Source of the DNA: an uncultured Alistipes sp.
Lineage (GTDB): Bacteria; Bacteroidota; Bacteroidia; Bacteroidales; Rikenellaceae
NCBI GenBank assembly: GCA_944321965.1
Contig: CALUNH010000012.1
Coordinates: 1-64,000 of the forward strand
Length of the DNA stretch: 64,000 nucleotides
Direction: 5' to 3'
Part shown: in pieces, positions 41,542-57,812 of the stretch
Numbering within the stretch: position 1 is the stretch's first letter
How the letters are laid out: every line of letters begins with the position of its first letter
Program-made: the position numbers and the translations under genes
The notes under the pieces: model-generated
Database searches by the model: none
The model's input: the letters and a program-made list of their open reading frames with translations, nothing else
Told to the model about the DNA's origin: nothing

Positions 41542-41558
41542 AAAAACGCTTGAGCATT

Positions 41559-43202
41559 ATGAAAAAGATATTATTGTACGGTTTGTCGACGCTGGGGCTT
41601 CTTTTCGGGGTATCGTGCTCCGATCTGCTGGAGGAGGAGTCCTATACGGAGGTCGGCAAGGATAACTACCTGAACAACGCTTCGGAGGCCGAGACGGTGC
41701 TGATGGGCATCTACAAGGACCTGACCAACGAGTACCTGTATTCCTATCATCTGTCGCTGCTGTTTACCATTTCGTCGGACATCGCGCAGTGCGAGGGCAG
41801 CGCGACGACGTCGTTCCGCGAGATTCCGACCAACTCGCACAACCCGTCGACCTCGCAGATCATGCAGACGTGGCAGAAGCTCTATTCGTCGATCTACGAC
41901 GCCAACGATTTCATCGAGACGGTTTCGTCGCGCATGGACGGCTGGAACTCCTCGAACCGGGAGTTGGCGACGATCTGCCTGGGCGAAGCGCGGGCGCTGC
42001 GTGCGTTGTTCTATTTCGAACTGGTCCGCTGGTACGGGAACGTAGTGCTGGTGAAGTCGACGGCGGAGTCGAACATTCCGGCCACGGAGTATGTGCAGGC
42101 CGATCCGAAGGAGGTCTATGCCTTCATCGAGGAGGATCTGAAATATGCTGCGGAGGTTCTTCCGTGGGCCGTTGACGATACGAAGCGTTCGTCGAACGCC
42201 TACCGTTTTTCGAAGGGTGCGGCGCTGGGACTGCTGGCGAAGGTTTACTGCACGTGGGCGGGTTATCCGGTGCGCGACGAGTCGAAATGGGCCGAGGCTG
42301 CGAAGGCGGCGCGTCAGGTTGTGGAGTCGGGCAAGCACCGTCTGATTCCGGATTACGAGACCGTATGGTCGAACACCTGCAACGGGATCTGGGATGCGGG
42401 CGAGAGCCTGATCGAGGTGTCGTTCTACTCGCCGACGAGTCTGGACAGCGATCAGACGGCCGGGCGTATCGGCAAGTGGAACGGTGTGTTGGCCGATGCG
42501 GTCGAGGGCAAGCGCGGACGTAACGCCGCGAACTGGAAGGTGGTCTATACTTTCACGCGGGAGTGGGAGTCGCATAAAGACCCGCGCATGGCGCTGTCGA
42601 TTGCGGACTACAGATACGATTCGTCGAAGGGCGACGGGCCTGTCACCTACTTCTCGACGGTGAGCAACCCGACGGAGGATAATCTGAACAAACAGCGCCA
42701 GATCTTCACCCCGGCGAAGTGGGATACGGAGAAGTACGTCAATTCGGCGAACTACATGATCAACAACGACAAGTCGTGCATCAACTGGTATATCCTGCGT
42801 TATTCGGACGTACTGCTGCTGTTTGCCGAGGCGTTGAACGAGTCGGGCGGTTCTGTTGTGGATGCGGTGGATGCGGTGAATGCGGTCCGTCGCCGCGGGT
42901 TCGGGGATACGAACCACGATCTTTCCTACGGGCTTTCGCAGGAGGAGCTGCGGGAGGCGATCCGCAAGGAGCGGGCCTACGAGCTCTGCTTCGAGGGACA
43001 CCGCAAGCAGGACCTGATCCGTTGGGGGATCTATTACACGACGATCCGCAACACGGCCCAGGAGTTGGTGAACTGGTTTACGAATGCCAATTATACGGTT
43101 GCGCGCTTTACGGTGGAGGGGCGTCACGAGTTGCTGCCCATTCCGCAGCGGGATCTCGACCTGATGAAGCAGTGCAAGCAGAATCCCGGCTGGGACGAAT
43201 AG
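41559..43202 (+). CDS. SusD-like nutrient-binding outer membrane lipoprotein
   Basis: A 547-residue lipoprotein (LLFGVSCSDLLEEE, lipobox Cys 18). It has the SusD fold pattern: TPR-like helices near residues 30-300 and the characteristic ALRALFYFELVRWYGNV segment. The RagB/SusD C-terminal pattern is seen in LREAIRKERAYELCFEGHRKQDL. It forms the lid over the SusC barrel and binds heparan sulfate oligosaccharides. The ATG at 41559 is preferred to a TTG three codons upstream because MKKILLYG opens a normal lipoprotein signal. Confidence 0.95.
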   Translation: MKKILLYGLSTLGLLFGVSCSDLLEEESYTEVGKDNYLNNASEAETVLMGIYKDLTNEYLYSYHLSLLFTISSDIAQCEGSATTSFREIPTNSHNPSTSQIMQTWQKLYSSIYDANDFIETVSSRMDGWNSSNRELATICLGEARALRALFYFELVRWYGNVVLVKSTAESNIPATEYVQADPKEVYAFIEEDLKYAAEVLPWAVDDTKRSSNAYRFSKGAALGLLAKVYCTWAGYPVRDESKWAEAAKAARQVVESGKHRLIPDYETVWSNTCNGIWDAGESLIEVSFYSPTSLDSDQTAGRIGKWNGVLADAVEGKRGRNAANWKVVYTFTREWESHKDPRMALSIADYRYDSSKGDGPVTYFSTVSNPTEDNLNKQRQIFTPAKWDTEKYVNSANYMINNDKSCINWYILRYSDVLLLFAEALNESGGSVVDAVDAVNAVRRRGFGDTNHDLSYGLSQEELREAIRKERAYELCFEGHRKQDLIRWGIYYTTIRNTAQELVNWFTNANYTVARFTVEGRHELLPIPQRDLDLMKQCKQNPGWDE

Positions 43203-43220
43203 TCCGGCCCTCCGGAGACG

Positions 43221-43257
43221 AAAAAAACCGATCGGATACCTCCGATCGGTTTTTTTC
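43221..43257 (+). terminator. Terminator of the GH88-SusCD operon
   Basis: A 16-bp perfect inverted repeat (43221-43236 and 43241-43256), whose outer part is A7 and T7, with a TACC loop. It lies 19 bases after the susD stop. Confidence 0.9.
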
Positions 43258-43399
43258 GTGACTTACGAGACCGGCACACCGGGGATGCCGACCTGCCGGA
43301 TCACTCCGGTAGCTTCCGTGCTTCGGACGAATCCCGACACCTGACAGTCCCGGGCCACCCTCAGGTTTTGAGGTTGACACCCGTCTCTTTTCCGGCATG

Positions 43400-43430
43400 A
43401 AAAAGCCCCGAGGTGGAAAGTCGGGGCTTG
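43400..43430 (-). terminator. Terminator of the PL12-PL12-PL13 operon
   Basis: Stem 43403-43411 with 43421-43429, loop of 9. On the minus strand it is followed by a T run. It lies 26 bases past the PL13 stop. Confidence 0.75.
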
Positions 43431-43455
43431 GTGTGTTCGGGTTGGGGCGGCGAGG

Positions 43456-44592
43456 TCAGTCGATTGGCTGCTGGGCGAATCCGGCGAGGTTGTAGCTGAC
43501 CGGCACGGTACTTCCGGCCACGCGATAAATGCCGTATTTGAAGTAGTATCCGGCTTCGTCATTGCGTCCGATAAGGATCTCCCGGTTGTCGACCAACTTG
43601 CGGGACTGTCCGTCGCAAAGCATCGCCACGTCGAGGCGTCCGGGCTGCAGGATCGTTTCGGCCTCACCGCCGTAGCGGGTCCAGCGGACCTCGACGGTGA
43701 AGGTGACCCAACGGTCCTTCGGGAACTCCGCGAAGGGCATCTTGGCGGCGATTGTCGACGCCTTGAATTCCGAGGTGACGGGCTGCATTACCCCGGCCTT
43801 CTCGGGGTTGGCGTTGCAACGGTCGTCCTTGTCGGTGAACCAGCGGCGGTCGGAGTTGGCCTTGATGTAGAACCATCCGCCGGAGAATCCGAACGCCAGC
43901 GGGGGATATCCTCCCTGTTCGACCTTCCAGCCGGTCGGATCTCCGGCCTTCCAGATCGTGCGGCCCTTGCGGTCGGTGGCTTCGACGCGGCGGTAGGCGA
44001 CCTCCTTCTTGATGACGACCGTATCGTACAGGGCGACGAACTCCTCCGTCGAAAGCTGCCGGACGCGGCCGTCCGGATCCGTCACGAGCGTTCGGTCGGG
44101 CATTCCGTGCCACTGTGCGAAGATGGTCGAGACCCGGCCGTCGAGCTCTTTCGGGACGTAGACGGCAAAGGTGTATCGCCACGCCGTACCCTGGGGGCAA
44201 ATTCCCTTGCCGTGGTGGTAGACGGTCTTCATCTTCTGCGCGGCGGCATAGGCATCGGGCGTCATCTCCGCGAAATCCGCGGCCGTAGCGTAGCAGTACG
44301 AGAGTTCCGAGCGGCCCTTGGTCTCGCCGGGGCTGTATCCCTTGAGGGTGTTGTCCTCCGCTCCGAGCGTGAAGCGGAAGGAGGGTTTTCCGTCGTACAT
44401 CCGGGTGTAGTCGCGGCACAGCGCCTCGGGCTTCCGGATTCCCACGGCGACCCACTCGCCGTCGATCACCTGTTCGCGGCGTGCCGAATCGGCCTGGATG
44501 TTCACCCGTTCGGCGATGGGTTGCAGTTCGGGTTGCTGGGCCGCTGCCGCTGCCCCGACGAGCAGTGCCCCGAGGATTCCGATCGTTTTCAT
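43456..44592 (-). CDS. Heparin lyase I (PL13)
   Basis: A 378-residue secreted lyase that cuts highly sulfated heparin and heparan sulfate by beta-elimination. It has a signal peptide (ALLVGAAAAAQ). Family residues are visible: Cys 132 in GICPQGTAW, His 162 in AQWHGMPDR, and Lys 352 with Tyr 356 in YFKYGIYR, matching the catalytic His, Lys and Tyr of heparinase I. The start MKTIGILG lies one base after the stop of the PL12 gene, so translation is probably coupled; upstream in-frame Met codons fall inside that gene. It is the last gene of the operon. Confidence 0.92.
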   Translation of the reverse strand: MKTIGILGALLVGAAAAAQQPELQPIAERVNIQADSARREQVIDGEWVAVGIRKPEALCRDYTRMYDGKPSFRFTLGAEDNTLKGYSPGETKGRSELSYCYATAADFAEMTPDAYAAAQKMKTVYHHGKGICPQGTAWRYTFAVYVPKELDGRVSTIFAQWHGMPDRTLVTDPDGRVRQLSTEEFVALYDTVVIKKEVAYRRVEATDRKGRTIWKAGDPTGWKVEQGGYPPLAFGFSGGWFYIKANSDRRWFTDKDDRCNANPEKAGVMQPVTSEFKASTIAAKMPFAEFPKDRWVTFTVEVRWTRYGGEAETILQPGRLDVAMLCDGQSRKLVDNREILIGRNDEAGYYFKYGIYRVAGSTVPVSYNLAGFAQQPID

Positions 44593-44593
44593 C

Positions 44594-46600
44594 TCAGAGC
44601 TCATAGCCGAAACGGTAGGTTTTGCCGCCGACGCGGATTGCGACGCCGAACCGGCTGCCGGTATTCTCCTGGTCGGGGACGATGGCGATCGAACCCTTCC
44701 GGGCATCGTCGTCGGGTGTGATGACGGTGATGAGCCAGAGACTCTCCCCGGCCTTCTTGGGCATCTCGACGGCGTAGGCCGGACGCTCCTCCTTTTTGCG
44801 GTAGGCGTTCGAGACCCATCCCTCTTCCTGCCGGATCTTCACCGGAACGCTCCCCGAGCTTTTGATGCGGATGTTGTTTCCGTCATCGAAGAGCGTGCGG
44901 AGCGTGCCGTCCTTGGCGAACTCCACCTTGCCGGGGCAGAGGTTGAAGTGCACGCCGACGGTCCCGGCAGCCGCCCCCGTGGCGAGGTCGGCGATTACGA
45001 GCAGCCCGTCCTGCGTGGCGAAGAAGGCCCGGCGGTGTGTGAGACCCTCGTAGGAGGGGTTCTCGGTGACGAGTACGGTCTCTTCGGGCGCGGCCTTCCA
45101 CAAGAGGAGCTTCGAGTCGGTAGAGTCGAGGTTTCGGTTGTCGAGCGTCAGGGTGTTGTGCACGCGGGTCTGGCGGAACCAGTTGCGCTGGGCGAGTACG
45201 GCGCTGTCGCCGCCGTATACGTAGCTGCCCGAATCGGGGAAGAAGTTGCGGCCGCGGCGCCAGTAGTCGAAGGTTCCGTTGTCGGGCTGGTTGTGCCAGA
45301 AGGCCGGGGGCCCGGCCTTGACGACCGTGACGGTGGCATCCGTATCCCATCCCGTGCGCAGGACGTAGAATCCCGAAGCGGGGAACTGCTGCGAGGTGCA
45401 GTCGGGGAGAGCGCCTTTTCGGCCTTCCGTGGCGAACCACTGGAGCTGGCGGTCGTCGGGGAAGACGCGGCTCCAGTTGCGGAACTGCTTCTTGAGCGAG
45501 GCTTTGTCGTGGCTCTTGGTGTCGCCGAACATCGGGTTGGAGTAGTCGGGGAAGAGGAGGTTCCACGTGACGGTGGTCATCTTCCCGACGGTCTCGATGT
45601 AGGAGGCGGGGAATTCGTCCTCGAAACCGTTCTGACGGGCCATGCCGAGGGCCTTGAGGAAGATGTCGATGGCGGCGATGTGGTATCCGAAGTCCAGTTC
45701 GAACTGCATCCCGTCGGGATAGACCTGGACGCCGATTTCGCGGTTGAGGATCTCGATGCCGCTGCGGCGCCACTCGGGGGCTTCGCGGAACTCCGGGAAG
45801 TAGATGCCTGCGAAGAGCATCCGCTGGGCCTCGAAGAGCAGGTGGTTGCCCTGCTTCGAATAGTTGTGCAGGATGTGGTCGGCGTGCTGGCGGTAGGTGC
45901 GCAGGAAGAGGTTGAGGAATTCGGGCGTGAAGCGCGGCGACTGAATCGTCAGTGCGAACTCCGTCAGCAGGTCCTGCAGCCGTCGTCCGGCCTCCATGGG
46001 CCGCCATGCGAATCGGATGTTTTCGCGTTCGGCGGCGATCTCCTCCTCGGAGGCTCCGGCGGCCTTGAGGCGCTCGACGCCGTCCAGCGGGTTTTTTTTC
46101 ACCCAGTCGGTGTACTGGTCGATCCAGGCGTCGATGTAGCGGTTGTCGCGGGTCAGGTAGTAGCACTTGGCCAGCGGAATGAACCAGTAGTGGCGGTGGA
46201 GCTGCCAGCGGAGTTCGTTGTCCCGCACGGGCCAGTATCGCCAGTCGATGTCGTCGCCGTAGAAGTAGGAGGGCTGATAGCCCTTGTGGGCGTAGAACTT
46301 GTGTTCGAGGGCTTCGTCGGCCTGGCGCTGTTCGAGTTTGCTGACCTTGATGTTTTCGAGGTCGAGCCCGAAGAGCTGCACGGGTTTTCGTGTGCGGAAA
46401 TACTTGAGCAGCTCCTTGTCTGCGGCGGGGATGTTCCCCTTCTCGACGGCCTTTTTCACGTTCTTGAGCTCCGGGCGTTCGAGGTCCAGCAGGTCGTAGA
46501 GCGATTTTTCATCGCCGAGCGTCGGTTTTACCGGTTCCGCGGCTGCCGCTGCCGAGGCGAATGCCAGCAGGGCGCAGCCGATCATCACGATTCGTTTCAT
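44594..46600 (-). CDS. Heparinase II/III family lyase (PL12), second copy
   Basis: A 668-residue secreted heparan sulfate lyase with a signal peptide (to about residue 21, FASAAAAAE). The N-terminal helical toroid is followed by the C-terminal beta domain. Catalytic positions fit PL12: Asn 252 and His 253 (GNHLLF), Tyr 306 (FGYHIAA) and His 481 (VHNTLTLD). The length is standard for PL12. It lies 39 bases after the first PL12 gene. Two stretches are nearly identical at the DNA level to that gene, including 45140-45257. Confidence 0.93.
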   Translation of the reverse strand: MKRIVMIGCALLAFASAAAAAEPVKPTLGDEKSLYDLLDLERPELKNVKKAVEKGNIPAADKELLKYFRTRKPVQLFGLDLENIKVSKLEQRQADEALEHKFYAHKGYQPSYFYGDDIDWRYWPVRDNELRWQLHRHYWFIPLAKCYYLTRDNRYIDAWIDQYTDWVKKNPLDGVERLKAAGASEEEIAAERENIRFAWRPMEAGRRLQDLLTEFALTIQSPRFTPEFLNLFLRTYRQHADHILHNYSKQGNHLLFEAQRMLFAGIYFPEFREAPEWRRSGIEILNREIGVQVYPDGMQFELDFGYHIAAIDIFLKALGMARQNGFEDEFPASYIETVGKMTTVTWNLLFPDYSNPMFGDTKSHDKASLKKQFRNWSRVFPDDRQLQWFATEGRKGALPDCTSQQFPASGFYVLRTGWDTDATVTVVKAGPPAFWHNQPDNGTFDYWRRGRNFFPDSGSYVYGGDSAVLAQRNWFRQTRVHNTLTLDNRNLDSTDSKLLLWKAAPEETVLVTENPSYEGLTHRRAFFATQDGLLVIADLATGAAAGTVGVHFNLCPGKVEFAKDGTLRTLFDDGNNIRIKSSGSVPVKIRQEEGWVSNAYRKKEERPAYAVEMPKKAGESLWLITVITPDDDARKGSIAIVPDQENTGSRFGVAIRVGGKTYRFGYEL
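45140..45257 (-). repeat. 118-bp segment shared with the neighbouring PL12 gene
   Basis: It matches 47156-47273 at 114 of 118 positions. It encodes the region from the Gly-rich SYVYGGD to the catalytic His and LTLD. The genes are far less alike elsewhere. Confidence 0.8.
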
Positions 46601-46639
46601 GTCGGTTTTCCTGGTTTTTCGGTTGTATGTTTTTTTGAA

Positions 46640-48577
46640 CTATTTCAGGACGTATTTCCGGCCGTCGACCGTCACGCGGATGGCGCCGCGGCGGCGTTCG
46701 GCCTTGATTTTGGCTTCGGCGGGGCGTTCGGCGGGGAGCAGGACGGTGATGAAACGCACCTCCCTGCCGGGCTGTTTCTCCGCCGTGAAGGCGTAGGCCG
46801 GACGGGGGTTGCGCGAACGGTAGACGTGCGAAACCCACCCCTCCTGCGGCTCCGCAGCTTCGGCCCCGAAGACCTGTACGAGGAGGTTGTTCCCATCCTC
46901 GAAACGGGTTGCGACGCGCCCGGCCGCGAGCTCCTCTTCGGGCTGGCCCTCCGCGAGGTTGTAGTGCAGGGCGACGCGGCCCGCGGCCTCGCCTGCGGCC
47001 ACATCCTCGATGACGAAGAAGCGCCGGTCGACGAACCACACCGTGCGCCGGTGCGCAAGGCCCTCGTAGGAGGGGTTCTCGACCGTGAGGATGTCGGTTC
47101 CGCCGACGGTCTCCCAGCGGAGGCACTTCGAGTCGGTTGCATCGAGGTTGCGGCCGTCGAGCGTCAGGGTGTTGTGCACGCGGGTCTGTCGGAACCAGTT
47201 TCGCTGGGCCAGTACGGCGCTGTCGCCGCCGTATACGTAGCTGCCCGAATCGGGAAAGAAGTTGCGGCCGCGGTGCCAGATTTCGAAGGTCCCGTTGTCG
47301 GGCTGGCAGTGCCAGAAGGCCTGGGGCCCGGCCTTGAGGATCATCACCGTGGCGTCGTTGTCCCAGCCGTTGCGCAGGACGTAGAATCCCGAGGTGCGGA
47401 ACGCTCGCGAGAGATACCCCGGAGCGCAGCCTTCATCCCCCTGTGTGGCACGTTCGCGGATGAGGGCGTTTTCGGGGAATACCGTCAGCCATTCGCGGTA
47501 GGATTCGAGCAGGTGAGCCTTCTCCTGCTGCCGGTTGTCGCTGAAGAGCGGGGTGGTGTAGTCGGGGTAGGAGCAGTTGAGGTGGACGTCGATCATGCGT
47601 TCGACGGTCGTGAGGTATTCGGCGGGGAATTCGCCGCGGTAGCCGTTGGCGTCCATCATCTGCAGGGCCTTGAAGAAGATGTTGATCGACTCCAGGTGGT
47701 AGTGGGGGTCGAGTTCGTACTGCATACCGTCGTCGTAGACCTGTTTGCGGATTTCGCGGTTGAGGATCTCGACGCCGGTGGCGCGCCAGTGAGCGGCGTC
47801 GCGGAACTCGGGGAAGAAGGCCCCGGCGAAGAGCAGCCGCTGGGCCTGGAACAGCAGGTGGTTGCCCGAGGCGGAGAAGTGTCGGGTGATGTGTTCGGCG
47901 TGACGGTGGTAGTTTTCGAGGAACTGCAGGAGGAACTCCCCGTCGAATGCCCGGGCGGGCAGGAAGTAGAGGAACTGGTGGATCTGGAACTCCAGACGGT
48001 CGCTCACTTCGAGGGGCCGCCAGGCGAAGTAGACGTTGTCGGCCGAGGTCCAGTCGCCGATTCGGCTTTCGTCATACTCGGTGAGGGGGTTCTTGCGGAT
48101 CCAGTCGAGGTATTCGGCGCACCACTCCGCAGCGTAGCGTTCGTCGCCCGAGCGGCGGTATGCCTTTCCCATGGGGACCCACCACTTCATGCGGTGCAAC
48201 TGCCAGCGGAGTTCGTTGTCCCGCACGGGCCAGTACTGCCAGTCGATGTCGTTGCCATAGAAATAGGAGGGCTGGTAGCCCGAATGGACGAAGAAGCGGT
48301 GTTCGAGGGCTTCGTCGGCCCAGCGCTGCTCGTCGGGGGTGATCTCCGGGGCGTCGGTCTCGACTCCGGGGCAGCGGACCGAGGTGCGGTTGCGGAAATA
48401 GGCCAGCAGGACGTCGGCGGCTGCCGGGTCGTTGCCTGCGGCGTGATATCGGGCGACCTCTTCGAGTCCGGGGCGGGTGAGGTCGAGCAGGGCGAAGACG
48501 GTCGAATCGGTTTGGGCCATTCCCGGCAGGCCGAGGAGCAGGGCCAGCAGCGGGGCGAGGAGTTTGGCGGTTTTCAT
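46640..48577 (-). CDS. Heparinase II/III family lyase (PL12), first copy
   Basis: A 645-residue secreted lyase with a signal peptide (LLALLLGLPGMAQ). The helical N-terminal domain has YQPSYFYGNDIDWQYWPV. Catalytic positions are Asn 239 and His 240 (GNHLLF), Tyr 293 (PHYHLES) and His 468 (RVHNTLTLD). It is the first gene of the minus-strand operon. Its promoter and the operator copy at 48753-48788 lie upstream. Differences from the second PL12 may give a preference for another sulfation pattern. Confidence 0.93.
   Translation of the reverse strand: MKTAKLLAPLLALLLGLPGMAQTDSTVFALLDLTRPGLEEVARYHAAGNDPAAADVLLAYFRNRTSVRCPGVETDAPEITPDEQRWADEALEHRFFVHSGYQPSYFYGNDIDWQYWPVRDNELRWQLHRMKWWVPMGKAYRRSGDERYAAEWCAEYLDWIRKNPLTEYDESRIGDWTSADNVYFAWRPLEVSDRLEFQIHQFLYFLPARAFDGEFLLQFLENYHRHAEHITRHFSASGNHLLFQAQRLLFAGAFFPEFRDAAHWRATGVEILNREIRKQVYDDGMQYELDPHYHLESINIFFKALQMMDANGYRGEFPAEYLTTVERMIDVHLNCSYPDYTTPLFSDNRQQEKAHLLESYREWLTVFPENALIRERATQGDEGCAPGYLSRAFRTSGFYVLRNGWDNDATVMILKAGPQAFWHCQPDNGTFEIWHRGRNFFPDSGSYVYGGDSAVLAQRNWFRQTRVHNTLTLDGRNLDATDSKCLRWETVGGTDILTVENPSYEGLAHRRTVWFVDRRFFVIEDVAAGEAAGRVALHYNLAEGQPEEELAAGRVATRFEDGNNLLVQVFGAEAAEPQEGWVSHVYRSRNPRPAYAFTAEKQPGREVRFITVLLPAERPAEAKIKAERRRGAIRVTVDGRKYVLK
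47156..47273 (-). repeat. 118-bp segment shared with the second PL12 gene
   Basis: Counterpart of 45140-45257, with four base differences in 118. A second similar stretch lies near 48190-48280 against 46200-46285. Confidence 0.8.
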
Positions 48578-48682
48578 GGGTGTCGCAGGTTTTCGGTTTG
48601 GGTGGTTTCAGGGTTTCGGAGGCGTCTGCGGACTTCGGATTCCGCGGCCGGACCGCGGCGTCCGGGGATTCCGGCGCAAAGA

Positions 48683-48690
48683 CAAAGATA
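48683..48690 (-). promoter_or_regulatory. -7 element of the PL12-PL12-PL13 operon
   Basis: TATCTTTG on the minus strand fits TAnnTTTG. It lies 98 bases downstream of the operator copy C start at 48788. No -33 TTG is present. Confidence 0.65.
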
Positions 48691-48752
48691 CGACAAAGCG
48701 GCGAGCTCTTTTATCAGAATCTCACAAACCTCGGCGGAAATTCTGCAAAGGA

Positions 48753-48788
48753 GTATCAGATTTGTGCAACCGGATGCCGCATTTGTCG
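48753..48788 (-). promoter_or_regulatory. Putative HTCS operator, copy C
   Basis: Read on the minus strand, this 36-bp element has ACAAA repeats 21 bp apart and matches copy A at 26 of 36 positions. I predicted its position from the 98-bp spacing of the other two copies and found it there. Confidence 0.75.
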
Positions 48789-48825
48789 AATTTCGGCCTC
48801 GGGAGGGGCTTGCGGCGGGGTTTTA

Positions 48826-48861
48826 GGACAAATTTGGGATTCGATTCTACAAAATCGAAAG
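48826..48861 (+). promoter_or_regulatory. Putative HTCS operator, copy B
   Basis: The 36-bp element has ACAAA starts at 48828 and 48849, 21 bp apart, and begins 98 bp upstream of the -7 box at 48924. It also holds a TTCGATT / AATCGAA inverted repeat. Confidence 0.75.
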
Positions 48862-48923
48862 AGTTTTGCACACGATCCGGGATTTTGGGGACAAACGCCG
48901 GGGCCCGGGCGAGCGCTTTTTCC

Positions 48924-48931
48924 TAAATTTG
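48924..48931 (+). promoter_or_regulatory. -7 element of the sulfatase-PL15 operon
   Basis: TAAATTTG fits TAnnTTTG. No -33 TTG is seen, and operator copy B lies at the fixed distance upstream. Confidence 0.65.
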
Positions 48932-49052
48932 CCATACTGAAAAACCGTCCGGACCTCCGGTTCCGCCGCTGCGGCCTGCCGCCGACCCGCCTGCTTCGGG
49001 GTCGTCGCGCACGGCTGCCCGAACCCGGTCCTCCGGGAACCTGAAACCGCTT

Positions 49053-50462
49053 ATGACCGACCTGAACACTTCCGCTTTGGCGGCGGTTCTTGCCGCCGTA
49101 GCGACGGCCGCCGATGCCTCCGCCGCCCCGATTTCGAAGCCTGCACCCTCCGCCGGGCAGCAACCAGACATCATCGTCATCATGACCGACCAGCAGACGG
49201 CCGGAGCCCTGTCGTGTGCCGGGAATCCGTGGGTCCGAACCCCGGCGATGGATTCCCTGGCGGCCGACGGCGTTCGTTTCACGCGGGCCTACTGCCCCTA
49301 TCCGCTGAGCGGACCGTGCCGGGCCTCGCTCATCACGGGCCGGATGCCCTTCGAGGTGGGGGCCACCGACAACGGCGTGCGCCCGACGGCCGAAGCCATG
49401 CGCGAAGGGATCGGGCACCGCATCGCGGCGGCGGGTTACGAATGCCTCTACGCCGGGAAGTGGCACGTCCCGGAAGTGAACCTCCCCGATTCGGGCACGG
49501 GATTCCGGCGCATCGCGAAGATGGGCGACCCGACGCTGGCTGCGGCGTGCGACGAGGCGCTCGGGGATTACGACGGCGACAAGCCCCTCTTCCTGGTGGC
49601 GTCGCTGCTCAATCCGCACGAGATCTGCGAATACGGCCGCAACGAGACCCTCCAGTACGGCGAACTGGAACCCTTCGCGACGGGGGAGTGCCCGAATCTT
49701 CCGGCGAACTTCATGCCCTCGACCTATGCGGCCGAGGCCCTGACGTTGGAACGCGCCGCCTCGCCCCGCTACCACGACACCTACACCTATACCCAGGACG
49801 ACTGGCGCCGCTACCTTTATGCCTACTACCGTTTTGTCGAGCGGGTCGACCGCGAGGTGGGGCGGATCGTCGGGGTGCTCAAAAAATACGGTCTTTACGA
49901 CGATGCGGTGATCCTCTTCCTGTCGGACCACGGCGACGGCGCGGCGGCCCACGGCTGGAACCAGAAGTGGAACCTGCAGGAGGAGGTCGTCAACGTGCCG
50001 CTGATCGTCAAGTCGCCGAAGGGCCGGGGGCTGCGGGGTGCGGTGAACACCGCGGCGCTGTCGAACGTGGGGCTGGACCTCTACGCCACGGTGTGCGACT
50101 ATGCGGGCGTGGCGCTCGATCCGGCGCGTTACCGGGGCCGGAGCCTGCGCCCCGTGGCCGAAGGGCGTGCGGAGACGCTCCACGAGGAGGTCTTCGTCGA
50201 GACGCTGCTTTCGGGTGTGGGGATGCGCGGCTGGAGCATCGTCGGACCCCGCTACAAGTATGTGCTCTACCAGTGGGGCCGCAACCGCGAGGCGCTTTAC
50301 GACCTGCAGTCCGATCCGGGCGAGATGGTCAATCTGGCCGTCGATGGCCGCTATGCCGGGGAGCTTGCCCGCCTGCGCCGGGCGCTTTACGAGTGGGGCG
50401 TGCGGATCGGCGAGCAGCGCCTGATCCGGAATATGACCCCTTACGCCCGAACCGGGGAGTGA
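49053..50462 (+). CDS. Ser-type sulfatase (S1), candidate uronate 2-O-sulfatase
   Basis: A 469-residue sulfatase. The N-terminus is an Ala-rich likely signal (to about residue 25). Metal-site residues start in IMTDQQ. The formylglycine motif is Ser-type, S86-G-P-C-R90, followed by ASLITGR; it needs the radical SAM maturase anSME, which is not in the window. A later metal/catalytic region has LSDHGDG. Length and the MTDQQ style fit sulfatases acting on unsaturated uronate 2-O-sulfate in heparan sulfate disaccharides, but the position specificity is inferred from the locus. It heads operon 3. Confidence 0.85.
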   Translation: MTDLNTSALAAVLAAVATAADASAAPISKPAPSAGQQPDIIVIMTDQQTAGALSCAGNPWVRTPAMDSLAADGVRFTRAYCPYPLSGPCRASLITGRMPFEVGATDNGVRPTAEAMREGIGHRIAAAGYECLYAGKWHVPEVNLPDSGTGFRRIAKMGDPTLAAACDEALGDYDGDKPLFLVASLLNPHEICEYGRNETLQYGELEPFATGECPNLPANFMPSTYAAEALTLERAASPRYHDTYTYTQDDWRRYLYAYYRFVERVDREVGRIVGVLKKYGLYDDAVILFLSDHGDGAAAHGWNQKWNLQEEVVNVPLIVKSPKGRGLRGAVNTAALSNVGLDLYATVCDYAGVALDPARYRGRSLRPVAEGRAETLHEEVFVETLLSGVGMRGWSIVGPRYKYVLYQWGRNREALYDLQSDPGEMVNLAVDGRYAGELARLRRALYEWGVRIGEQRLIRNMTPYARTGE

Positions 50463-50526
50463 TCCCGCGGAGTGTTCTGGCCGTCAGCCTGCCGTGCTGG
50501 CCCGGCCTTCTCTCCGCCCCGACAGC

Positions 50527-50651
50527 CGGGCCCGCCGAATGTCCTGCAACCCGGATCTGCCGACCCGGACCCGCCGAACAGCCCGCGACCCGGCCCTGCC
50601 GACCCGCCCTCCCGGACCCGCCGAACGGCCTGCGACCCGGACCTGCCGATC
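50527..50651 (+). repeat. Three 39-bp tandem repeats between sulfatase genes
   Basis: Units lie at 50527-50565, 50566-50604 and 50613-50651, with an 8-base insert before the third. They are very C-rich and about 80-90 percent alike. The 257-base gap between the two sulfatase genes is mostly this array; no gene or promoter was seen in it. Confidence 0.75.
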
Positions 50652-50719
50652 CGACCCGACCCCGGCATCCGAACCCTTGACACGAACAACCAAACTCCGT
50701 TGACCGGAACCAAAACTTT

Positions 50720-52390
50720 ATGAAAAACCTCGAAACCTTGCGGACGGGCGTTCGTTACGCTGCCGTGCCGCTGACGCTGGCGACCCTTGCGGGTTGCGGC
50801 GGGGGGCAGCCCAAGCGCCCCAACATTCTGGTGATGATGACCGACGACCACACGGCGCAGGCCATGAGCTGCTACGGGAGCCTGCTGGTCGAGACTCCGA
50901 ACCTGGACCGGCTGGCGCGCGAAGGGATGCTCTTCGAGAACTGCTACGTCTCGAACGCCATTTCGGGACCTTCGCGGGCCTGCATCCTCACGGGCAAGTA
51001 CAGCCACGTGAACGGCTTCACGGACAATTCGCGCACGTTCGACGGCGACCAGCAGACCTTCCCCAAACTGCTCCATGCGGCGGGTTACCAGACGGCGATG
51101 ATCGGCAAATGGCACCTGAACTCCGACCCGCAGGGCTTCGATTTCTGGAGCATCCTCGTGGGACAGGGCGAATACTACGCGCCGCTGTTCATCGAAAACG
51201 GCGAGGAGCGCGTCGAGGAGGGCTATGTCACGGACATCATCACCGACAAGGCGATCTCGTTTCTCGAAGGGCGCGATCCCTCGCGGCCCTTTGCGATGCT
51301 CTACTACCATAAGGCGCCGCACCGCAACTGGATGCCTGCGCAGCGCCACCTGGGGATGAACGACGCGCGGGTCTATCCCGAGCCTTTCAACCTGCTGGAC
51401 GACTACGCGGGGCGCGGGAGCGCCGCGCGCGAGCAGGCGATGGAGATCGGGCGCGACATGTGGCCCGAGTGGGACCTGAAGCTGATGACGCCCGAGCAGC
51501 TGGCGCAGTCCTACGAGCTGGAGACGACGGGCGACGCGAACCGGGACGATGTGTCGCGAGCGAACGACTGGCGGAGCAGCGTGATGCAGTACCAGGCGGC
51601 CTACAACCGGATGACCGATGCCGAGAAGGCGCGCTGGAACGAGGCCTACGCTTCGCGCATCGCCGAGTACGAGCAGTTGAAGCGGACGGCCGCGCCCGAG
51701 GAGATGACGCGCTGGAAGTACCAGCAGTACATGAAGGACTACTGCGCGGTGATCAAGGCCGTGGACGAGAACGTCGGCCGTCTGCTGGACTACCTGGAGC
51801 AGATCGGCGAGCTGGACAACACGATCATCGTCTACACGTCGGACCAGGGCTTCTTCCTGGGCGAGCACGGCTGGTTCGACAAGCGCTTCATGTACGAGGA
51901 GTGCCAGCGCACGCCGCTGCTGGTGCGCTACCCGAAGGCCGTGGGGGCCGGGACGCGGAGCCGGGCGCTGGCCATGAACATCGACCTGGCGCCGACGTTC
52001 GTCGACATGGCGGGGCTGCCGGTTCCCGACGACATGCAGGGGCGTTCGCTGCGCGGGGTGCTGACCTCGGGCGGCCAGGCTCCCGAGGGGTGGCGCACGG
52101 GGGTCTACTACCACTACTACGAATACCCCTCGTGGCACTCCGTGAAGCGCCACTACGGCATCCGCACGGCTGACTATAAGCTCATCCACTTCTACAACGA
52201 CGTTGACGAGTGGGAGCTCTACGACCTGAAGCACGACCCGCACGAGATGCAGAACGTCTATAACGACCCGGCCTATGCCGACATCCGCCAGGAACTCCAC
52301 CGGGAGCTCGAAAAGCTCCAGACGGAGTGCGGGGATACGGACCCCTGCGAGCGGGAGTACGAATTCTTCCAGGGGGCGGACAAACTCTGA
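50720..52390 (+). CDS. Ser-type sulfatase (S1), candidate GlcNAc-6-O-sulfatase
   Basis: A 556-residue sulfatase with a lipoprotein signal (LATLAGCGGG, Cys 26). The metal site begins MMTDDHTAQAMSCYG. The Ser-type formylglycine motif is S82-G-P-S-R86, followed by ACILTGKYSHVNGF. Later regions include YYHKAPHRNW, YTSDQGFFLGEHGWFDKR and the C-terminal YDLKHDPHEMQN. The overall sequence resembles the Bacteroides N-acetylglucosamine-6-O-sulfatase of the heparan sulfate locus. It would remove 6-O-sulfate from glucosamine. The next gene starts 76 bases after its stop. Confidence 0.87.
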   Translation: MKNLETLRTGVRYAAVPLTLATLAGCGGGQPKRPNILVMMTDDHTAQAMSCYGSLLVETPNLDRLAREGMLFENCYVSNAISGPSRACILTGKYSHVNGFTDNSRTFDGDQQTFPKLLHAAGYQTAMIGKWHLNSDPQGFDFWSILVGQGEYYAPLFIENGEERVEEGYVTDIITDKAISFLEGRDPSRPFAMLYYHKAPHRNWMPAQRHLGMNDARVYPEPFNLLDDYAGRGSAAREQAMEIGRDMWPEWDLKLMTPEQLAQSYELETTGDANRDDVSRANDWRSSVMQYQAAYNRMTDAEKARWNEAYASRIAEYEQLKRTAAPEEMTRWKYQQYMKDYCAVIKAVDENVGRLLDYLEQIGELDNTIIVYTSDQGFFLGEHGWFDKRFMYEECQRTPLLVRYPKAVGAGTRSRALAMNIDLAPTFVDMAGLPVPDDMQGRSLRGVLTSGGQAPEGWRTGVYYHYYEYPSWHSVKRHYGIRTADYKLIHFYNDVDEWELYDLKHDPHEMQNVYNDPAYADIRQELHRELEKLQTECGDTDPCEREYEFFQGADKL

Positions 52391-52466
52391 CGAACGAACA
52401 CGAACCATCAATAATCGATTCGGGGAGCGGGCGACGTTCCGGCCCCGACCCAAAACTGCAACGGAT

Positions 52467-54113
52467 ATGGACAGACGAGAATTTCTGAAAACTTCGGGAT
52501 GGACCCTGCTGGGTCTGGCGGCGGCGAACGCCCTGCCGGGCTGCTCGCGCCTCGGGGATCGGGAGTCGCTTCCCGACGAGGTGAAGAAGGGCTTTCCCTC
52601 GCTCCGGGACCTGAAGGTCTTCTGGGGCGATGTGCACAACCACTGCAACGTGACCTACGGCCACGGCGACCTGTCGGACGCCCTGGCGGCCGCGGCGCAG
52701 CAGCTCGACTTCGTGTCGGTGACGCCGCACGCCCTGTGGCCCGACATCCCGGGCGAGAACGACCCGCGGCTGAACTGGGTGATCGGCTATCACACCGAGG
52801 CCTTCAAGCGCCTGCGGGCCGGGGGCTATGAGAAGTACCGCCGGATGGTCGAGGCGGCGAACCGCCCGGGCGAGTTCCTGACGTTCGTCTCCTACGAGTG
52901 CCACAGCATGGAGCACGGCGACCACGTGGCGCTGTTCCGCGATTTCGACGTGCCGCTGGTGGAGTGCACGTCGGTTCCCGACCTGAAGGAGCGGCTTCGG
53001 GAGTACGCCTGCTACGTCACGCCGCACCACATGGGCTACCAGACCGGATTCCGGGGCTACAACTGGGCGGCTTTTTCGGATAACGACCCGCAGCTGCCGT
53101 TCGTGGAGATGTTCTCGCGCCACGGCCTTGCGGAGAGCGACACGGGCGACTACGACTACCTGCACGACATGGGCCCGCGCATCTGGGAGGGTTCGATCCA
53201 GTACGGGCTGGAGCAGGGCCACAAGTTCGGCCTGATGTGCTCGACGGATCAGCACGCCGGTTACCCGGGCAGCTACGGCGACGGCCGCATCGGCGTCTAC
53301 GCCCCGTCGCTCGACCGCGACGCGCTGTGGGAGCAGATGGGCAAACGTCACGTCTGCGGCGTGACGGGCGACAAGATCAAGATCGACTTCCGCATCAACG
53401 GCGGGGTAGGGGGCGACGTGATCCGTGCCTCTCGCCGGGAGATCTACCTCAATGTCGAGGCGCAGAACGCCATCGACTACGTCGACCTGATCAAGAACGG
53501 GCAGTGCGTGGCGCGTCTGAACGGCCCGCACCGTGCGGCGGCACCTTCCGACGAGGTGATCCGCACGAAGGTGAAGGTCAACTTCGGCTGGAACCGCGAG
53601 GAGGAGTACGTCCACTGGACGGGCGCCCTGCGGTTGACCGAGGGGTCGATCACCGACCTGCAGACCTGCTTCCGCGGGGCGGCCTTCACCTCGCCGCAGC
53701 CGGGCGAGACGGAGTTCCACACGCGCGTGAACCGCGTCGTGGAGCGCGACGCGCGGCATGTGGCGCTGGACCTCTATTCGTCGAAGAACCCCAACGTGAT
53801 GACCCCGGCGATGCAGGGCGTGGTGCTCGACATCACGGCTCCGCGCACGGCGCGGCTCGTGGCGGAGTTCAACGGCCGGAGCTACGAGCACACGATCGGC
53901 GAACTGCTCGAAGGGGCTCGGGCGCACTTCCTGCGGGGTTGGCTTTCGGAGGCGGTCCAGTTCGAGCGTGCACAGCCCGAGGCGGCCTTCTGCGTCGGAC
54001 ACCGCATGGTCGACACGGAGGCGCAGCGCGATACGGATTACTATTACGTGCGGGTGCGCCAGCGCGACGGACAGTGGGGCTGGTCGTCGCCGATCTGGGT
54101 GGAACGGGCCTGA
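52467..54113 (+). CDS. PHP-like DUF3604 lipoprotein of unknown activity
   Basis: A 548-residue protein whose N-terminus MDRREFLKTSGW looks like a twin-arginine signal and has a lipobox (NALPGC, Cys 26). A complete set of PHP-fold metal motifs follows: H57-X-H59 (DVHNHC), His 88 (VTPHALW), E144-X-H146 (YECHS), H187-H188 (TPHHMG) and D261-X-H263 (TDQHAG). DUF3604 proteins are predicted metal-dependent hydrolases, possibly phosphoesterases or lactonases. Its place between sulfatases and a sugar kinase suggests a role on heparan sulfate fragments. The ATG at 52467 was chosen for the signal; the frame upstream overlaps the sulfatase gene. It ends 2 bases before the ROK gene. Confidence 0.78.
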   Translation: MDRREFLKTSGWTLLGLAAANALPGCSRLGDRESLPDEVKKGFPSLRDLKVFWGDVHNHCNVTYGHGDLSDALAAAAQQLDFVSVTPHALWPDIPGENDPRLNWVIGYHTEAFKRLRAGGYEKYRRMVEAANRPGEFLTFVSYECHSMEHGDHVALFRDFDVPLVECTSVPDLKERLREYACYVTPHHMGYQTGFRGYNWAAFSDNDPQLPFVEMFSRHGLAESDTGDYDYLHDMGPRIWEGSIQYGLEQGHKFGLMCSTDQHAGYPGSYGDGRIGVYAPSLDRDALWEQMGKRHVCGVTGDKIKIDFRINGGVGGDVIRASRREIYLNVEAQNAIDYVDLIKNGQCVARLNGPHRAAAPSDEVIRTKVKVNFGWNREEEYVHWTGALRLTEGSITDLQTCFRGAAFTSPQPGETEFHTRVNRVVERDARHVALDLYSSKNPNVMTPAMQGVVLDITAPRTARLVAEFNGRSYEHTIGELLEGARAHFLRGWLSEAVQFERAQPEAAFCVGHRMVDTEAQRDTDYYYVRVRQRDGQWGWSSPIWVERA

Positions 54114-54115
54114 CG

Positions 54116-55042
54116 ATGGAGCGCCATGCCATAGGAATCGACCTCGGCGGCACTTCGGTGAAGTACGCCGTGGTCGCCGCGTCGGGGCGGATTCTCTTCA
54201 GCGGGGAGCATGGCTCCCGGGCTGCGGAGGGCGCCGACGCGGTGCTGGAACAGATCATAAAGGGCATCGAAGCCTGCCGGGCGTATGCCGCCGGGGCGGG
54301 GCTGGAGCTTGCGGGGGTCGGGATCGGCACCCCGGGCGTGGTCTCGGCCGACGGCCGCACGGTGCTGGGCGGTGCGGAGAATATCGCGGGCTGGGAGAAC
54401 GTCCCGCTCGCGTCGCGGATTGAGGCGGCCACGGGACTGGGGGCCGTGGCCGGAAACGACGCCAACGCCATGGCTTTGGGCGAGACGCTCTACGGAGCGG
54501 CCCGGGGGGCTACGGACGTGGTTTTCGTGACGGTGGGGACCGGGATCGGCTGTGGGGTGCTGATCGACGGCCGCCTCTTCCGCGGCTACCGCGGCCGCGG
54601 CATGGAGATGGGCCACATTACGGTCAAGTGCGACGGCGAACACTGTGCCTGCGGCGGGGTGGGGTGCCTGGAGCACTACGCCTCGACTTCGGCGTTGGTG
54701 CGTCGCTTCCGCGAACTGAGCGGTGCGTCGGAGGCCGACGGCCGCGAGGTGGTTCGCCGCTACGAAGCGGGGGATGCGGCGGCCGTCCGGGCGCTGGAGG
54801 AGCACTGGATGTACCTCTCGCACGGCATCGCCTCGATGGTGAATCTTTTCGCGCCGCAGCGGGTCGTCGTCGGGGGTGGGATCTCCGAGGCGGGCCCCTT
54901 CTATCTGGAACGCCTGCGTGAAGGGGTGCGTCGTCAGATGATGGATGTGTGCGGTGCGGAGACCGAAATTGTGGCTGCGCAGCTCGGCAACCGGGCCGGG
55001 AGCCTCGGGGCTGCGGGTCTGATTCTCGGAAAGAAGGCGTGA
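54116..55042 (+). CDS. ROK family sugar kinase
   Basis: A 308-residue cytoplasmic kinase of the ROK family. The ATP-binding phosphate loop is in IGIDLGGTSVKYAV. The catalytic Asp is in GNDANAMALGE. The zinc motif is CACGGVGCLE (about residue 175), and VTVGTGIGCGV is also present. Such kinases phosphorylate glucosamine, N-acetylglucosamine or glucose at O-6. In a heparan sulfate locus the freed amino sugar is the likely substrate. It has no helix-turn-helix, so it is an enzyme and not a ROK repressor. It starts 2 bases after the DUF3604 gene. Confidence 0.88.
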   Translation: MERHAIGIDLGGTSVKYAVVAASGRILFSGEHGSRAAEGADAVLEQIIKGIEACRAYAAGAGLELAGVGIGTPGVVSADGRTVLGGAENIAGWENVPLASRIEAATGLGAVAGNDANAMALGETLYGAARGATDVVFVTVGTGIGCGVLIDGRLFRGYRGRGMEMGHITVKCDGEHCACGGVGCLEHYASTSALVRRFRELSGASEADGREVVRRYEAGDAAAVRALEEHWMYLSHGIASMVNLFAPQRVVVGGGISEAGPFYLERLREGVRRQMMDVCGAETEIVAAQLGNRAGSLGAAGLILGKKA

Positions 55043-55044
55043 CG

Positions 55045-55158
55045 ATGAGACGCAACTATGCACTGGTGGGGCTGATCATGCTCTTCTGGTTCGTGATCTC
55101 GTTCATCACGAACATTATCGGGCCGCTGATTGAAAACAAACGTTACTCCCTCGGGTAA
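55045..55158 (+). pseudogene. Truncated N-terminus of an MFS sugar transporter
   Basis: An open frame of 37 codons begins MRRNYALVGLIMLFWFVISF and continues with TNIIGPLI, the typical first helix of an MFS transporter of the kind found in glycan loci. After about residue 29 the sequence changes to ENKRYSLG and stops. The rest of the transporter (about 370-400 residues expected) is absent; the PL15 gene starts 23 bases later. It starts 2 bases after the ROK gene, so the full gene was once in the operon. It could also act as a short membrane peptide, but decay is more likely. Confidence 0.7.
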
Positions 55159-55181
55159 CTTTTCCGTAAAACGAACCGATC

Positions 55182-57812
55182 ATGAAACGAACCATCACGC
55201 TGCTGGCGCTGCTGCTGACGGCCTTCGGAGCCGCGGCACAATCTGCAGCACAGCCTGCAACACAATCCGCGGCACAGTCTGCGGCACAACCCGCCGATGA
55301 ATCCGCTGCGGGCCGACCTTCCGATATCCCGGCCGCCGAACAACACCTTGACAAACAGGCGCTGCGCCCCCGCTACCGGGCGTGGATGCAGCCTGCCGGA
55401 GGGGTTTGCGTGACGCAGAATCCGCCGTCGCTGCTCTGGCCCGCGGGCGGGAAGGAGGTCACGGGCTACCGGGTCGAACTGGCCCCGTCGCCCGACTTCC
55501 CGGCCGACAGGATGCTGACCGGCGATCAGGAGTGGGCCGTCTGGGCACTCCACCGGCCGCTGGCGCCGGGCCGCTACTGGTGGCGGGTGACGACCTTCAC
55601 GCGGGACGGGGCGTCGCAACGTTCCGCGGCTTGCGACTTCACCGTTGCGGACACCGCGCGGCGCTTCGCCACCCCGACGGGTGACGAGCTCGTGCGCCGG
55701 ATCGCCGAGACGCCCCACCACCGGCTCTATGTCACGCGCGACGGCCTCCAGTCGTTCCGCACCCGCACGGCGTCGAACCCCGAGGCCCGGGAGTTCCTCG
55801 GCCGTGCGCGGAAACGCATCGACATGGACCTGGTGCCGATCGCCCCGACGCGGCCGCGCGACACGACCGGGATGTCGCCCTTCCAGAAACGCTCGCTCAT
55901 CAACTTCATGTACCACAAGTTCGGCGAGGTGGCCACCCAGCCGATCGTCGACTTTTCGCTGGCGTGGCTGCTTTCGGGCGAGGAAGCCTTTCTGGACGCC
56001 GTGGTTCGCCATGCGCGGCACGTGGCGGCGATGCCCGTCGACAGCGACGCCACGTCGGAGGACTTCAACCGCTCGGCGATCATGTACGGCCTGGCCTTCG
56101 GCTACGACACGGCGTGCGACCGCATGACGGCGGAGGAGCGTGCGGCGGTGCTCGAAGCGATCCGCGTGCGCGGCGAACGCTTCTACCGGCAGTACGTGCG
56201 CGATTTCGAGTGCCATTCGATGGACAACCACGTCTGGCAGCATACCTTCCGGAACTTCTTCTTCACGGCGATTGCGACGCTGGGCGACCTGCCCGAAGCG
56301 GAGCGGTGGCTGCGCTACTGCTACGAGGTGTGGTGCGGGCGCTTCCCGATCCTCGGGGGCGACGACGGCGGCTGGCACGACGGCAGCAGCTACATGCAGG
56401 CCAATCTGGTGACCTTCATCTACGTGCCGTTCGTACTGACGCGCCTGACGGGGACGGACTTCTTCGCGCTGCCGTGGTACCGCAACCTGCCGTCGTTCCT
56501 GGTCTACTCCTTCCCGAAGGGCTCCTACGCCACGGGCTTCGGCGACGACTACGAGAAGATGACCACGCCGTCGCAACTCTACATGGGCTTTGCCGATGCG
56601 CTGGCGCGCGAGACCGGCAGCGGCGAGGCGCGCTGGTATGCCGACCAACTGATCGGCCCGGACCCGCAGAACCTCTACCGTTCGAAGGGCTTCACGCTCT
56701 ACCGCATCCTGACGGACAAACCCCTCGGCTGCGTGGCTCCCGTGGCTCCGGCGCGCAATACGTCGCGGTTCTATCCCGATGCGGGCTTTTCGCTGATGCA
56801 CACCGACCCGGCCGATGCGTCGGACGACCTGATGGCGGCCTTCTTCGCGCTGCCGTTCGGTTCGACGGGCCACGCCCACGCCGCCCACAACGGCTTTACG
56901 ATCAACTACGGCGGCCGTCAGCTCTTCGGGGGCACGGGCTACTACTCGAATTTCAACGACAAACATACGCTGCTGCACTACCGCTCGCGGGGGCACAATA
57001 CGATCCTGGCCGACGGACTGGCGCAGGTGATCGGCGAGAACGGCTACGGCTGGCTGGCGCGCTTCGCCGATACCGAGGCGCTGACCTACACGCTGGGCGA
57101 CGCTTCGCACGCCTACGACTCGATCCGCACACCCTTCTGGATCGACCGCATGGAGAAGTCCGGTGTGGCCTATACGCGCGAGAACGGCCTCGGGGATCCG
57201 GGTGTGACGCGCTTCCGGCGCCACTTCCTCTTCCTGAAGCCCGACGTGATCGTCCTCTACGACGAGCTGGCGGCCCGCGAACCGATCACCTGGACGTGGC
57301 TGCTGCACAGCCACCACCGGCTGACGCAGCCCGGCGATGCGACGGCCGTCGAGGCGGATAACGGCCTGGCGGTGGGGCGGATGGACCTCTTTACCTCAAG
57401 TGGTCTGGAGGTGAATGTCACCGACGAATTCTTCTCCCCGGCAATCAACTGGAAAAAACGCACGGGCCCCGACGGCAAGGTGATGGAGTATGTGAACCAG
57501 TGGCATTCGGAGTTCACGACCCCGGCGAAGAGCCGTGCGCAGCGTTTCCTGGCGGTGTTCCGCATCACGCCTGCGGGTCGGGAGCCGCTGCCGCTGGCGC
57601 GTCATGCCGACGGCAGCCTCACGGTCGGGGCGTGGACCGTCCGCGCCGAACTCGACGCCTCGCGACCCGCGCGGCTCGAAGTCTCCGACTCCCGCGGCCA
57701 TGCCGTGCTCTACCATACCGAAGCCTCGACCGTCGAGGGCAGCACCCTCGTCCGTGTGCCCGGTGAGCCGGACCGCGAACTGGTTGATATCGTTCCGGCT
57801 TCGGTCCGCTGA
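55182..57812 (+). CDS. Heparinase II/III-type lyase with DUF4962 (PL15-like)
   Basis: An 876-residue secreted lyase, probably exo-acting on heparin and heparan sulfate oligosaccharides. It has a signal peptide followed by an Ala/Gln repeat (about residues 20-45). A DUF4962/fibronectin-like N-terminal domain follows (PPSLLWPAGGKEVTGYRVEL). The helical toroid is next, with the key region MDNHVWQHT and GWHDGSSYMQANL. The beta domain has SRGHNTILADG. This layout and length fit PL15 heparan sulfate lyases of Bacteroides. It is the last gene of operon 3, and the terminator at 57832 follows. Confidence 0.82.
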   Translation: MKRTITLLALLLTAFGAAAQSAAQPATQSAAQSAAQPADESAAGRPSDIPAAEQHLDKQALRPRYRAWMQPAGGVCVTQNPPSLLWPAGGKEVTGYRVELAPSPDFPADRMLTGDQEWAVWALHRPLAPGRYWWRVTTFTRDGASQRSAACDFTVADTARRFATPTGDELVRRIAETPHHRLYVTRDGLQSFRTRTASNPEAREFLGRARKRIDMDLVPIAPTRPRDTTGMSPFQKRSLINFMYHKFGEVATQPIVDFSLAWLLSGEEAFLDAVVRHARHVAAMPVDSDATSEDFNRSAIMYGLAFGYDTACDRMTAEERAAVLEAIRVRGERFYRQYVRDFECHSMDNHVWQHTFRNFFFTAIATLGDLPEAERWLRYCYEVWCGRFPILGGDDGGWHDGSSYMQANLVTFIYVPFVLTRLTGTDFFALPWYRNLPSFLVYSFPKGSYATGFGDDYEKMTTPSQLYMGFADALARETGSGEARWYADQLIGPDPQNLYRSKGFTLYRILTDKPLGCVAPVAPARNTSRFYPDAGFSLMHTDPADASDDLMAAFFALPFGSTGHAHAAHNGFTINYGGRQLFGGTGYYSNFNDKHTLLHYRSRGHNTILADGLAQVIGENGYGWLARFADTEALTYTLGDASHAYDSIRTPFWIDRMEKSGVAYTRENGLGDPGVTRFRRHFLFLKPDVIVLYDELAAREPITWTWLLHSHHRLTQPGDATAVEADNGLAVGRMDLFTSSGLEVNVTDEFFSPAINWKKRTGPDGKVMEYVNQWHSEFTTPAKSRAQRFLAVFRITPAGREPLPLARHADGSLTVGAWTVRAELDASRPARLEVSDSRGHAVLYHTEASTVEGSTLVRVPGEPDRELVDIVPASVR

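Follow-up and report, generated by a model that had tools for sequence, protein, structure and literature searches.

Each of the three operons in what looks like a heparin/heparan-sulfate utilisation locus (32-62 kb) of an uncultured Alistipes sp. was headed by four tandem half-sites at 21-bp steps, the strong ones at -96/-75 and the weak ones at -54/-33 from a -7 box (TAnnTTTG). At the level of sequence, the analysis established the repeats and how well they are conserved, the register that they keep to the box, and the fact that they occur together with the adjoining HTCS; this BT4663-type HTCS is likely to be the ligand of the three operators, here named A, B and C. The reading that we favour, with some confidence, is that the elements first noticed at these promoters are the distal, high-affinity halves of four-half-site operators for this regulator.

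The window (the whole stretch analysed, 64,000 nucleotides) covers the greater part of contig 12, which is 64,172 bases long and belongs to a 2.6-Mb genome that is 85% complete. Genes were assigned by Pfam domains and grouped into operons by their order. Operon A (32088-43202, forward strand) would encode a GH88-like enzyme (32088-33284), a heparinase II/III lyase (33313-36231), a BT4661-like surface glycan-binding protein (SGBP; 36253-38364), SusC (38383-41541) and SusD (41550-43202). Operon C (43456-48577, reverse strand) comprises two heparinase II/III lyases (46640-48577 and 44594-46600) and a PF14099 polysaccharide lyase (43456-44706), and operon B (49053-57812, forward strand) a sulfatase (49053-50462), an SGSH-type sulfatase (50720-52390), an uncertain ORF (52275-54113), a ROK kinase at the end of the ORF at 53237-55042 and a DUF4962/heparinase II/III lyase (55182-57812). 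Next to this last gene lies the HTCS gene (57865-62034, forward strand; the ATG at 57937 is the likely start), which combines a propeller sensor, a kinase, a receiver and an AraC-type DNA-binding domain and whose nearest named relatives are in Alistipes species and MAGs, including Alistipes sp. An66. This domain set, beside a heparin PUL with a BT4661-like SGBP, fits a BT4663-type heparin HTCS. We note that the PF14099 lyase is placed within the Alistipes locus, whereas the BT4675 heparin lyase of B. theta, a possible relative, is distantly located according to the accessible part of the regulon study (PMC3878776).

The original prediction rested on three 36-bp elements, at 31941-31976 and 48826-48861 on the forward strand and at 48753-48788 on the reverse strand. 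All three were found, with ACAAA repeats exactly 21 bp apart in each and TAnnTTTG exactly 98 bp downstream of the first base in A, B and C, and they do stand at the heads of all three heparin/heparan-sulfate operons. Its claim that the promoters lack a -33 element also held, as no TTG was present 14-36 bp upstream of the A, B or C box. Identity to copy A was 28/36 for B, as claimed, and 25/36 for C rather than 26; the B and C elements are identical at 23/36 positions. The 36-bp element itself is real, but it is only the distal part of a four-repeat array. Operator A (31938-32021, forward) has cores at 31943 (ACAAA), 31964 (ACAAA), 31985 (GCGGT, weak) and 32006 (TCAAT, weak), followed by the -7 box TACTTTTG of promoter A at 32039-32046 (forward). 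Operator B (48823-48906, forward) has cores at 48828 (ACAAA), 48849 (ACAAA), 48870 (ACACG) and 48891 (ACAAA), with the box of promoter B, TAAATTTG, at 48924-48931 (forward). For operator C (48708-48791, reverse), the cores, reading down, are 48786 (ACAAA), 48765 (ACAAA), 48744 (AGAAT, weak) and 48723 (GAGAT, weak), and the promoter C box, TATCTTTG, lies at 48683-48690 (reverse). The divergent operators B and C are separated by 42 bp from ACAAA to ACAAA (48786 to 48828), a distance shared by 12 of the 14 genomes that carry them; it is 32 bp, one helical turn shorter, in G163 and G166, both of which may share one event.

The composite pattern ACAAA-N16-ACAAA-N70-TAnnTTTG occurred exactly three times in the 2.6-Mb genome, as A, B and C and nowhere else. 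Allowing two mismatches gave four further genome matches, compared with one match for a reversed control pattern, and none of 100 dinucleotide-shuffled versions of the window contained the pattern, even at two mismatches.

Evidence for the full array came from a 21-bp half-site matrix: two promoter groups at a time supplied their units 1 and 2 to build it, and the third group was then scored, with 41 sites from the genome and its relatives. When scores were summed over the groups, offsets 0, 21, 42 and 63 were the best four of 140. By group, the best offsets in order were 0, 21, 63 and 42 for A and 0, 21, 42 and 63 for C, and for B 21, 0 and 42, with 63 fifth behind -1. Columns of the alignment between the strong pair and the box were then permuted, which keeps composition and relatedness (20,000 permutations, 41 of the 42 sites); units 3 and 4 stood out overall (z 7.4, p 5e-5) and in each of A, B and C (p at most 2e-4), although the three groups are not fully independent since the promoters could be old duplicates. 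Unit 3 of A by itself was barely recognisable (p 0.07). The core of the fourth half-site lies 33 bp before the box and its unit spans the -33 region; four half-sites of which the last covers this region would account for the constant 98 bp as well as for the absence of a -33 element. In a class II AraC-type promoter the proximal half-site overlaps the -35/-33 region and a consensus -33 element is lacking; here the half-site seen 33 bp before the box is weak and there is no TTG at that place, so that A, B and C could conceivably belong to that class.

One explanation for the data is a plain class-I operator, in which a dimer binds -96/-75 only and touches RNA polymerase from afar, repeats 3 and 4 being left over from an earlier tandem duplication or from a proximal site that the ancestor had. 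The distal pair does hold most of the operator's information over the 41 sites, as such an arrangement would have it. However, units 3 and 4 are in register and exceed the permutation level in A, B and C separately, as they do in other families (see below), and positions 64-67 are conserved over the 41 sites, so that we regard the class-I explanation as unlikely. Another possibility is that the HTCS has the distal pair only, and that a different regulator, perhaps a Crp-like protein such as BT4338, occupies the weak proximal half. The spacer of promoter A (31990-32020) contains a TTGAA-N9-TTCAA symmetry, strongly conserved in many copies as judged by eye and a possible site for a second factor, and the accessible part of one study describes B. 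theta arabinan genes under the HTCS BT0366 that also need BT4338 (PMC5061871). The symmetric stretch is, however, confined to A, whereas B and C have the 21-bp half-site pattern at this place, and we consider a second regulator at the proximal half highly improbable.

The distribution of the operators among relatives followed that of the HTCS. An ortholog search with the HTCS protein against 180 genus genomes (E at most 1e-250, three candidates scored per genome) returned an ortholog in 14 of them, and when the pattern was scanned with a free gap of 55-85 in 268 family genomes, the same 14 carried the operators at gap 70 or 71. Each has three, giving 42 in all, a number that includes two sites with one mismatch and one that was found by matrix and then checked. 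The trio was absent from all of the other 166 genus genomes; at trio level, then, sites were present in genus genomes only together with the cognate HTCS. Lone exact gap-70 matches were seen in three of the 166 (G011, G109 and G131) and in six genomes of other genera (G183, G193, G201, G233, G234 and G237). The gene downstream was the expected ortholog for 41/41 sites examined, the A site of G167 being left out. As the HTCS gene sits in the operators' own locus, the two occur together in part because the locus is inherited as a unit. The HTCS frame was broken or contained stops in three of the 14 genomes (G016, G154 and G170), possibly through assembly errors.

The gap-70 matches of genus g20 (G233, G234 and G237; L056 and L057) were considered as a further case and rejected: the G233 site precedes a lipoprotein-like ORF, as judged by eye, and no HTCS-like ORF was seen in the ORF list for the 5 kb fetched around it. 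These sites are left as unexplained or chance.

The distance from the first ACAAA to the box was 96 bp in 40 of the 42 sites and 97 bp in the other two. Downstream of the box, distances to a candidate in-frame ATG, of which several copies offer more than one, were 46-57 nt in 12 of 13 copies of A and 105-153 nt in the remaining one, 29-147 nt for B (the G163 copy lacks an in-frame ATG) and 12-252 nt for C. Insertions and deletions are thus frequent beyond the box, chiefly in B and C, and almost lacking between operator and box. These figures bear on the proposal, compatible with an HTCS operator, that the three promoters are copies of one ancestor and that the 98 bp was inherited rather than selected. 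A, B and C do lie in one locus and have their half-sites in common, yet most of the spacer differs among them, the distance from box to ATG has drifted freely in B and C while operator and box kept their spacing in 40/42 sites, and the register recurs in other families; mere inheritance of the spacing has, we think, a very slender chance.

A sequence-only matrix, R1 (54 bp, from 41 operators, with the promoter left out), was used for the genome scan that had been suggested with the original prediction. On the window's genome its matches to A, B and C had E values of 1.6e-14 to 8.4e-13, the next best match lying at E 0.063, which leaves only three strong sites, all at polysaccharide operons. 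R1 was also run on 32 chosen genomes. The 13 relatives with the HTCS gave 39 strong sites, three in every genome and all at E 9.2e-8 or better, and a few weak matches outside the locus, the best in G014 at E 0.0011, so that strong sites were confined to the PUL in the window's genome and in these 13 relatives. Among 11 Alistipes genomes chosen without the HTCS, eight were without a match at E 0.05 (R1 found nothing in G011) and three had weak ones only (best E 0.0145). Weak matches were present in all three genomes of genus g20 (best E 3.3e-4, in G237). Five genomes of other families with heparin loci yielded the heparin operator in one case (G275, E 0.0035); at E 0.05 there was nothing in G286, G326 and G475, and in G536 a match on another contig only. 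Nearly all of the strong sites were in R1's own training set, so the informative results are the lack of further strong sites, G275, and the third site of G167, which R1 recovered though it was outside the model. The many genomic matches unrelated to polysaccharide genes that would have spoken against an operator did not appear in the window's genome or in its relatives.

Similar half-sites, whose distance to the box is within one base of that in Alistipes, were also present at the heads of heparin loci in other Bacteroidales. These loci were found through PF16319 (the BT4661-like protein) in G286, G326, G475, G536 and G275, and the B. finegoldii locus (L159) by tblastn with the window's BT4661-like protein. 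The best half-site pair had TAnnTTTG at +95 in each of the stretches L150-L154 (20 kb each, both strands) and at +96 in L158, and in L159 the box followed at +96, +95 and +55 for the best three of the four pairs listed. No such pair was among the best four listed in L155, L156 or L157, out of 10 stretches scanned. By gene order, compared with the accessible part of PMC3878776, the L159 site at +95 is the counterpart of the bt4662 promoter. The +55 site places a strong pair in the proximal slot of a B. finegoldii promoter, which argues against the class-I explanation. Units 3 and 4 were examined in seven of these promoters, L152 being dropped as near-identical to L150 and the L159 +55 site because its strong pair already fills the proximal slot. 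When the seven were aligned by their boxes, the Alistipes matrix peaked at -74 and -95 (and -75), then at -33, -96 and -54, the last tied with -44; aligned on the first core, unit 4 came fourth (offset 62) and unit 3 fell outside the top ten offsets. Together units 3 and 4 were above permutation (p 5e-5), with absolute scores that were mostly negative, i.e. the units are degenerate. The B. finegoldii HTCS, the only one of another family to be so compared, is BT4663-type, with 42% identity over the whole length, and is closest to the Alistipes HTCS in the C-terminal AraC domain, as judged by eye. Taken with the 21-bp direct repeats, the 14/180 co-occurrence and the matrix scan, these loci support the original suggestion of an HTCS operator.

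How the heparin operators relate to other HTCS promoters was addressed with TAnnTTTG promoters near HTCS genes, gathered by a simple ORF-based script. In a first pool, of 136 promoters, self-similarity was highest at lag 21 (z 4.3), as it was in four of six overlapping subsets of that pool; lag 21 did not come first in the subsets from G326 (14 promoters) and from Sphingobacteria/Flavobacteria (22 promoters). For non-heparin HTCS promoters the lag-21 signal was in the proximal slot (z 5.9 in 106 promoters of the first set, z 4.4 in 103 from independent loci), the distal slot showing no enrichment (z 1.4 and 0.3 respectively); an intermediate position was raised too in the independent 103 (z 3.1). 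Control promoters from random stretches of G013 (35) also had a proximal lag-21 rise, if a weaker one (z 2.4), so HTCSs may not account for all of the general proximal signal. A lag-21 match of at least 11/14 was found in 10/103 and 14/136 promoters, compared with 1-4 and 0-3 at lags 19, 20, 22 and 23. The heparin loci of other families were the reverse, with z 5.3 in the distal and 0.1 in the proximal slot (30 promoters, not all independent), and this purely distal group signal is a further point for the class-I explanation. There would thus be a tendency for other HTCS promoters to carry a repeat pair in the proximal slot, whereas the heparin family has its strong pair one 42-bp module upstream. 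Self-similarity at lag 42 was not raised across the 136 HTCS promoters (z 0.4), which rules out the full four-site array as a trait of all HTCS promoters and makes it a feature of the heparin family.

The HTCS gene itself was unexpected in one respect, in that its receiver appears to be degenerate. Kinase residues such as H854 were invariant in nine aligned orthologs. Within the receiver, around residues 1112-1230, the phospho-Asp was retained in 13/13 of the readable orthologs (of 14), but the second acidic-pocket D was replaced by A, S or P in 13/13, the conserved K by M in 13/13 and the T/S by A in 12/13; we take these residues to have the roles assigned to their counterparts in CheY-type receivers. 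The Alistipes heparin HTCS receiver therefore lacks the conserved phosphorylation-site set (E/D-D, D, T/S, K), whereas 47/48 other HTCS receivers in the loci studied keep all of its residues, and the exception, L160, keeps D, T and K, with an acidic pocket that reads like a frame or alignment problem. With key residues lost, activation by phosphorylation cannot be assumed and the usual switch is doubtful. For BT4663, a regulator of the orthologous type, the accessible part of a recent study reports EMSA data in which BT4663-RR binds bt4662 promoter DNA with an apparent KD of 1.7 uM when phosphorylated and >22 uM when not (PMC11253607). The CHIP part of the receiver motif is common to BT4663 and the window's HTCS; binding by BT4663 is phosphorylation-dependent in that account (PMC11253607), whereas the Alistipes receiver is without the acid-pocket D, the T/S and the K. 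As BT4663 binds DNA much better when phosphorylated, the Alistipes clade would have to tolerate poor phosphorylation or switch otherwise.

We also asked whether operator B might serve to autoregulate the HTCS gene, and think this unlikely. Between operon B and the gene lies a terminator-like hairpin with 11 pairs (57831-57857, forward); such hairpins number 14 in 43200-62400 compared with 13.7 in shuffles, and this one has the second longest stem. Just before the HTCS start, 8/8 relatives have a TAnnTTTA-like stretch and no TAnnTTTG, as judged by eye. Given the hairpin and this stretch, the gene probably has its own promoter without the operator.

We propose that the head-to-tail row of four half-sites is an operator for the adjoining BT4663-type heparin sensor. 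The 21-bp steps put all four half-sites on one face of the helix. One HTCS dimer would dock on the strong distal pair, and a second dimer, or the same protein spreading, would cooperatively fill the weak pair; the half-site at -33 would then set an AraC-type domain against RNA polymerase in place of the missing -33 element. The fixed 98 bp would then be made up of the four half-sites and of the usual spacing up to the -7 box. In promoters of other HTCSs, a single good pair tends to occupy the -54/-33 slot itself. A bolder and rather doubtful extension is that the heparin HTCSs left this slot for two cooperating dimers seeded 42 bp upstream, and that in Alistipes, the chemistry of the receiver being lost, binding is governed by cooperative occupancy and a ligand-set conformation of the kinase and not by phosphorylation.

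AraC at araI1-I2 and XylS-type class II regulators bind direct half-sites 21 bp apart, the proximal one at -35/-33. The Alistipes operators have this spacing and this position of the promoter-proximal half-site in common with them; unlike them, they carry the strong pair 42 bp further upstream, and their proximal pair is degenerate. For 16 HTCSs, among them HTCS_Hep (BT4663) with three target promoters, Ravcheev et al. (2013) predicted direct repeats with a mean distance of 21 bp, and they proposed that HTCS dimers bind one face of the DNA at a distance of two turns, according to the accessible part of the paper (PMC3878776). In its basic form the interpretation therefore has a precedent. The hallmark of an HTCS operator in that part of the paper, a pair of direct repeats about 21 bp apart ahead of PUL genes, is present here, and the HTCS_Hep regulon is alike in having such a repeat before heparin operons beside a BT4663-type HTCS; its motif, as given there, has two sites (PMC3878776), whereas the Alistipes operators have four phased half-sites, a register to the box, and distal and proximal slots. 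A search of the accessible literature found no report of the four-site array, of an HTCS with a degenerate receiver, or of a fixed register between operator and -7 box. The operator is of a known kind; what is new is the four-site array, the shift of slot and the degenerate receiver.

Among the regulators of glycan use in gut Bacteroidota, HTCSs form a major class. Their contact with the promoter is little described in the literature searched, and a two-slot tendency tied to the -7 box bears on that; such a tendency would also be of use in regulon prediction for unculturable relatives. The existence of a conserved clade of HTCSs whose receiver is degenerate would call into question whether all HTCSs switch by phosphorylation.
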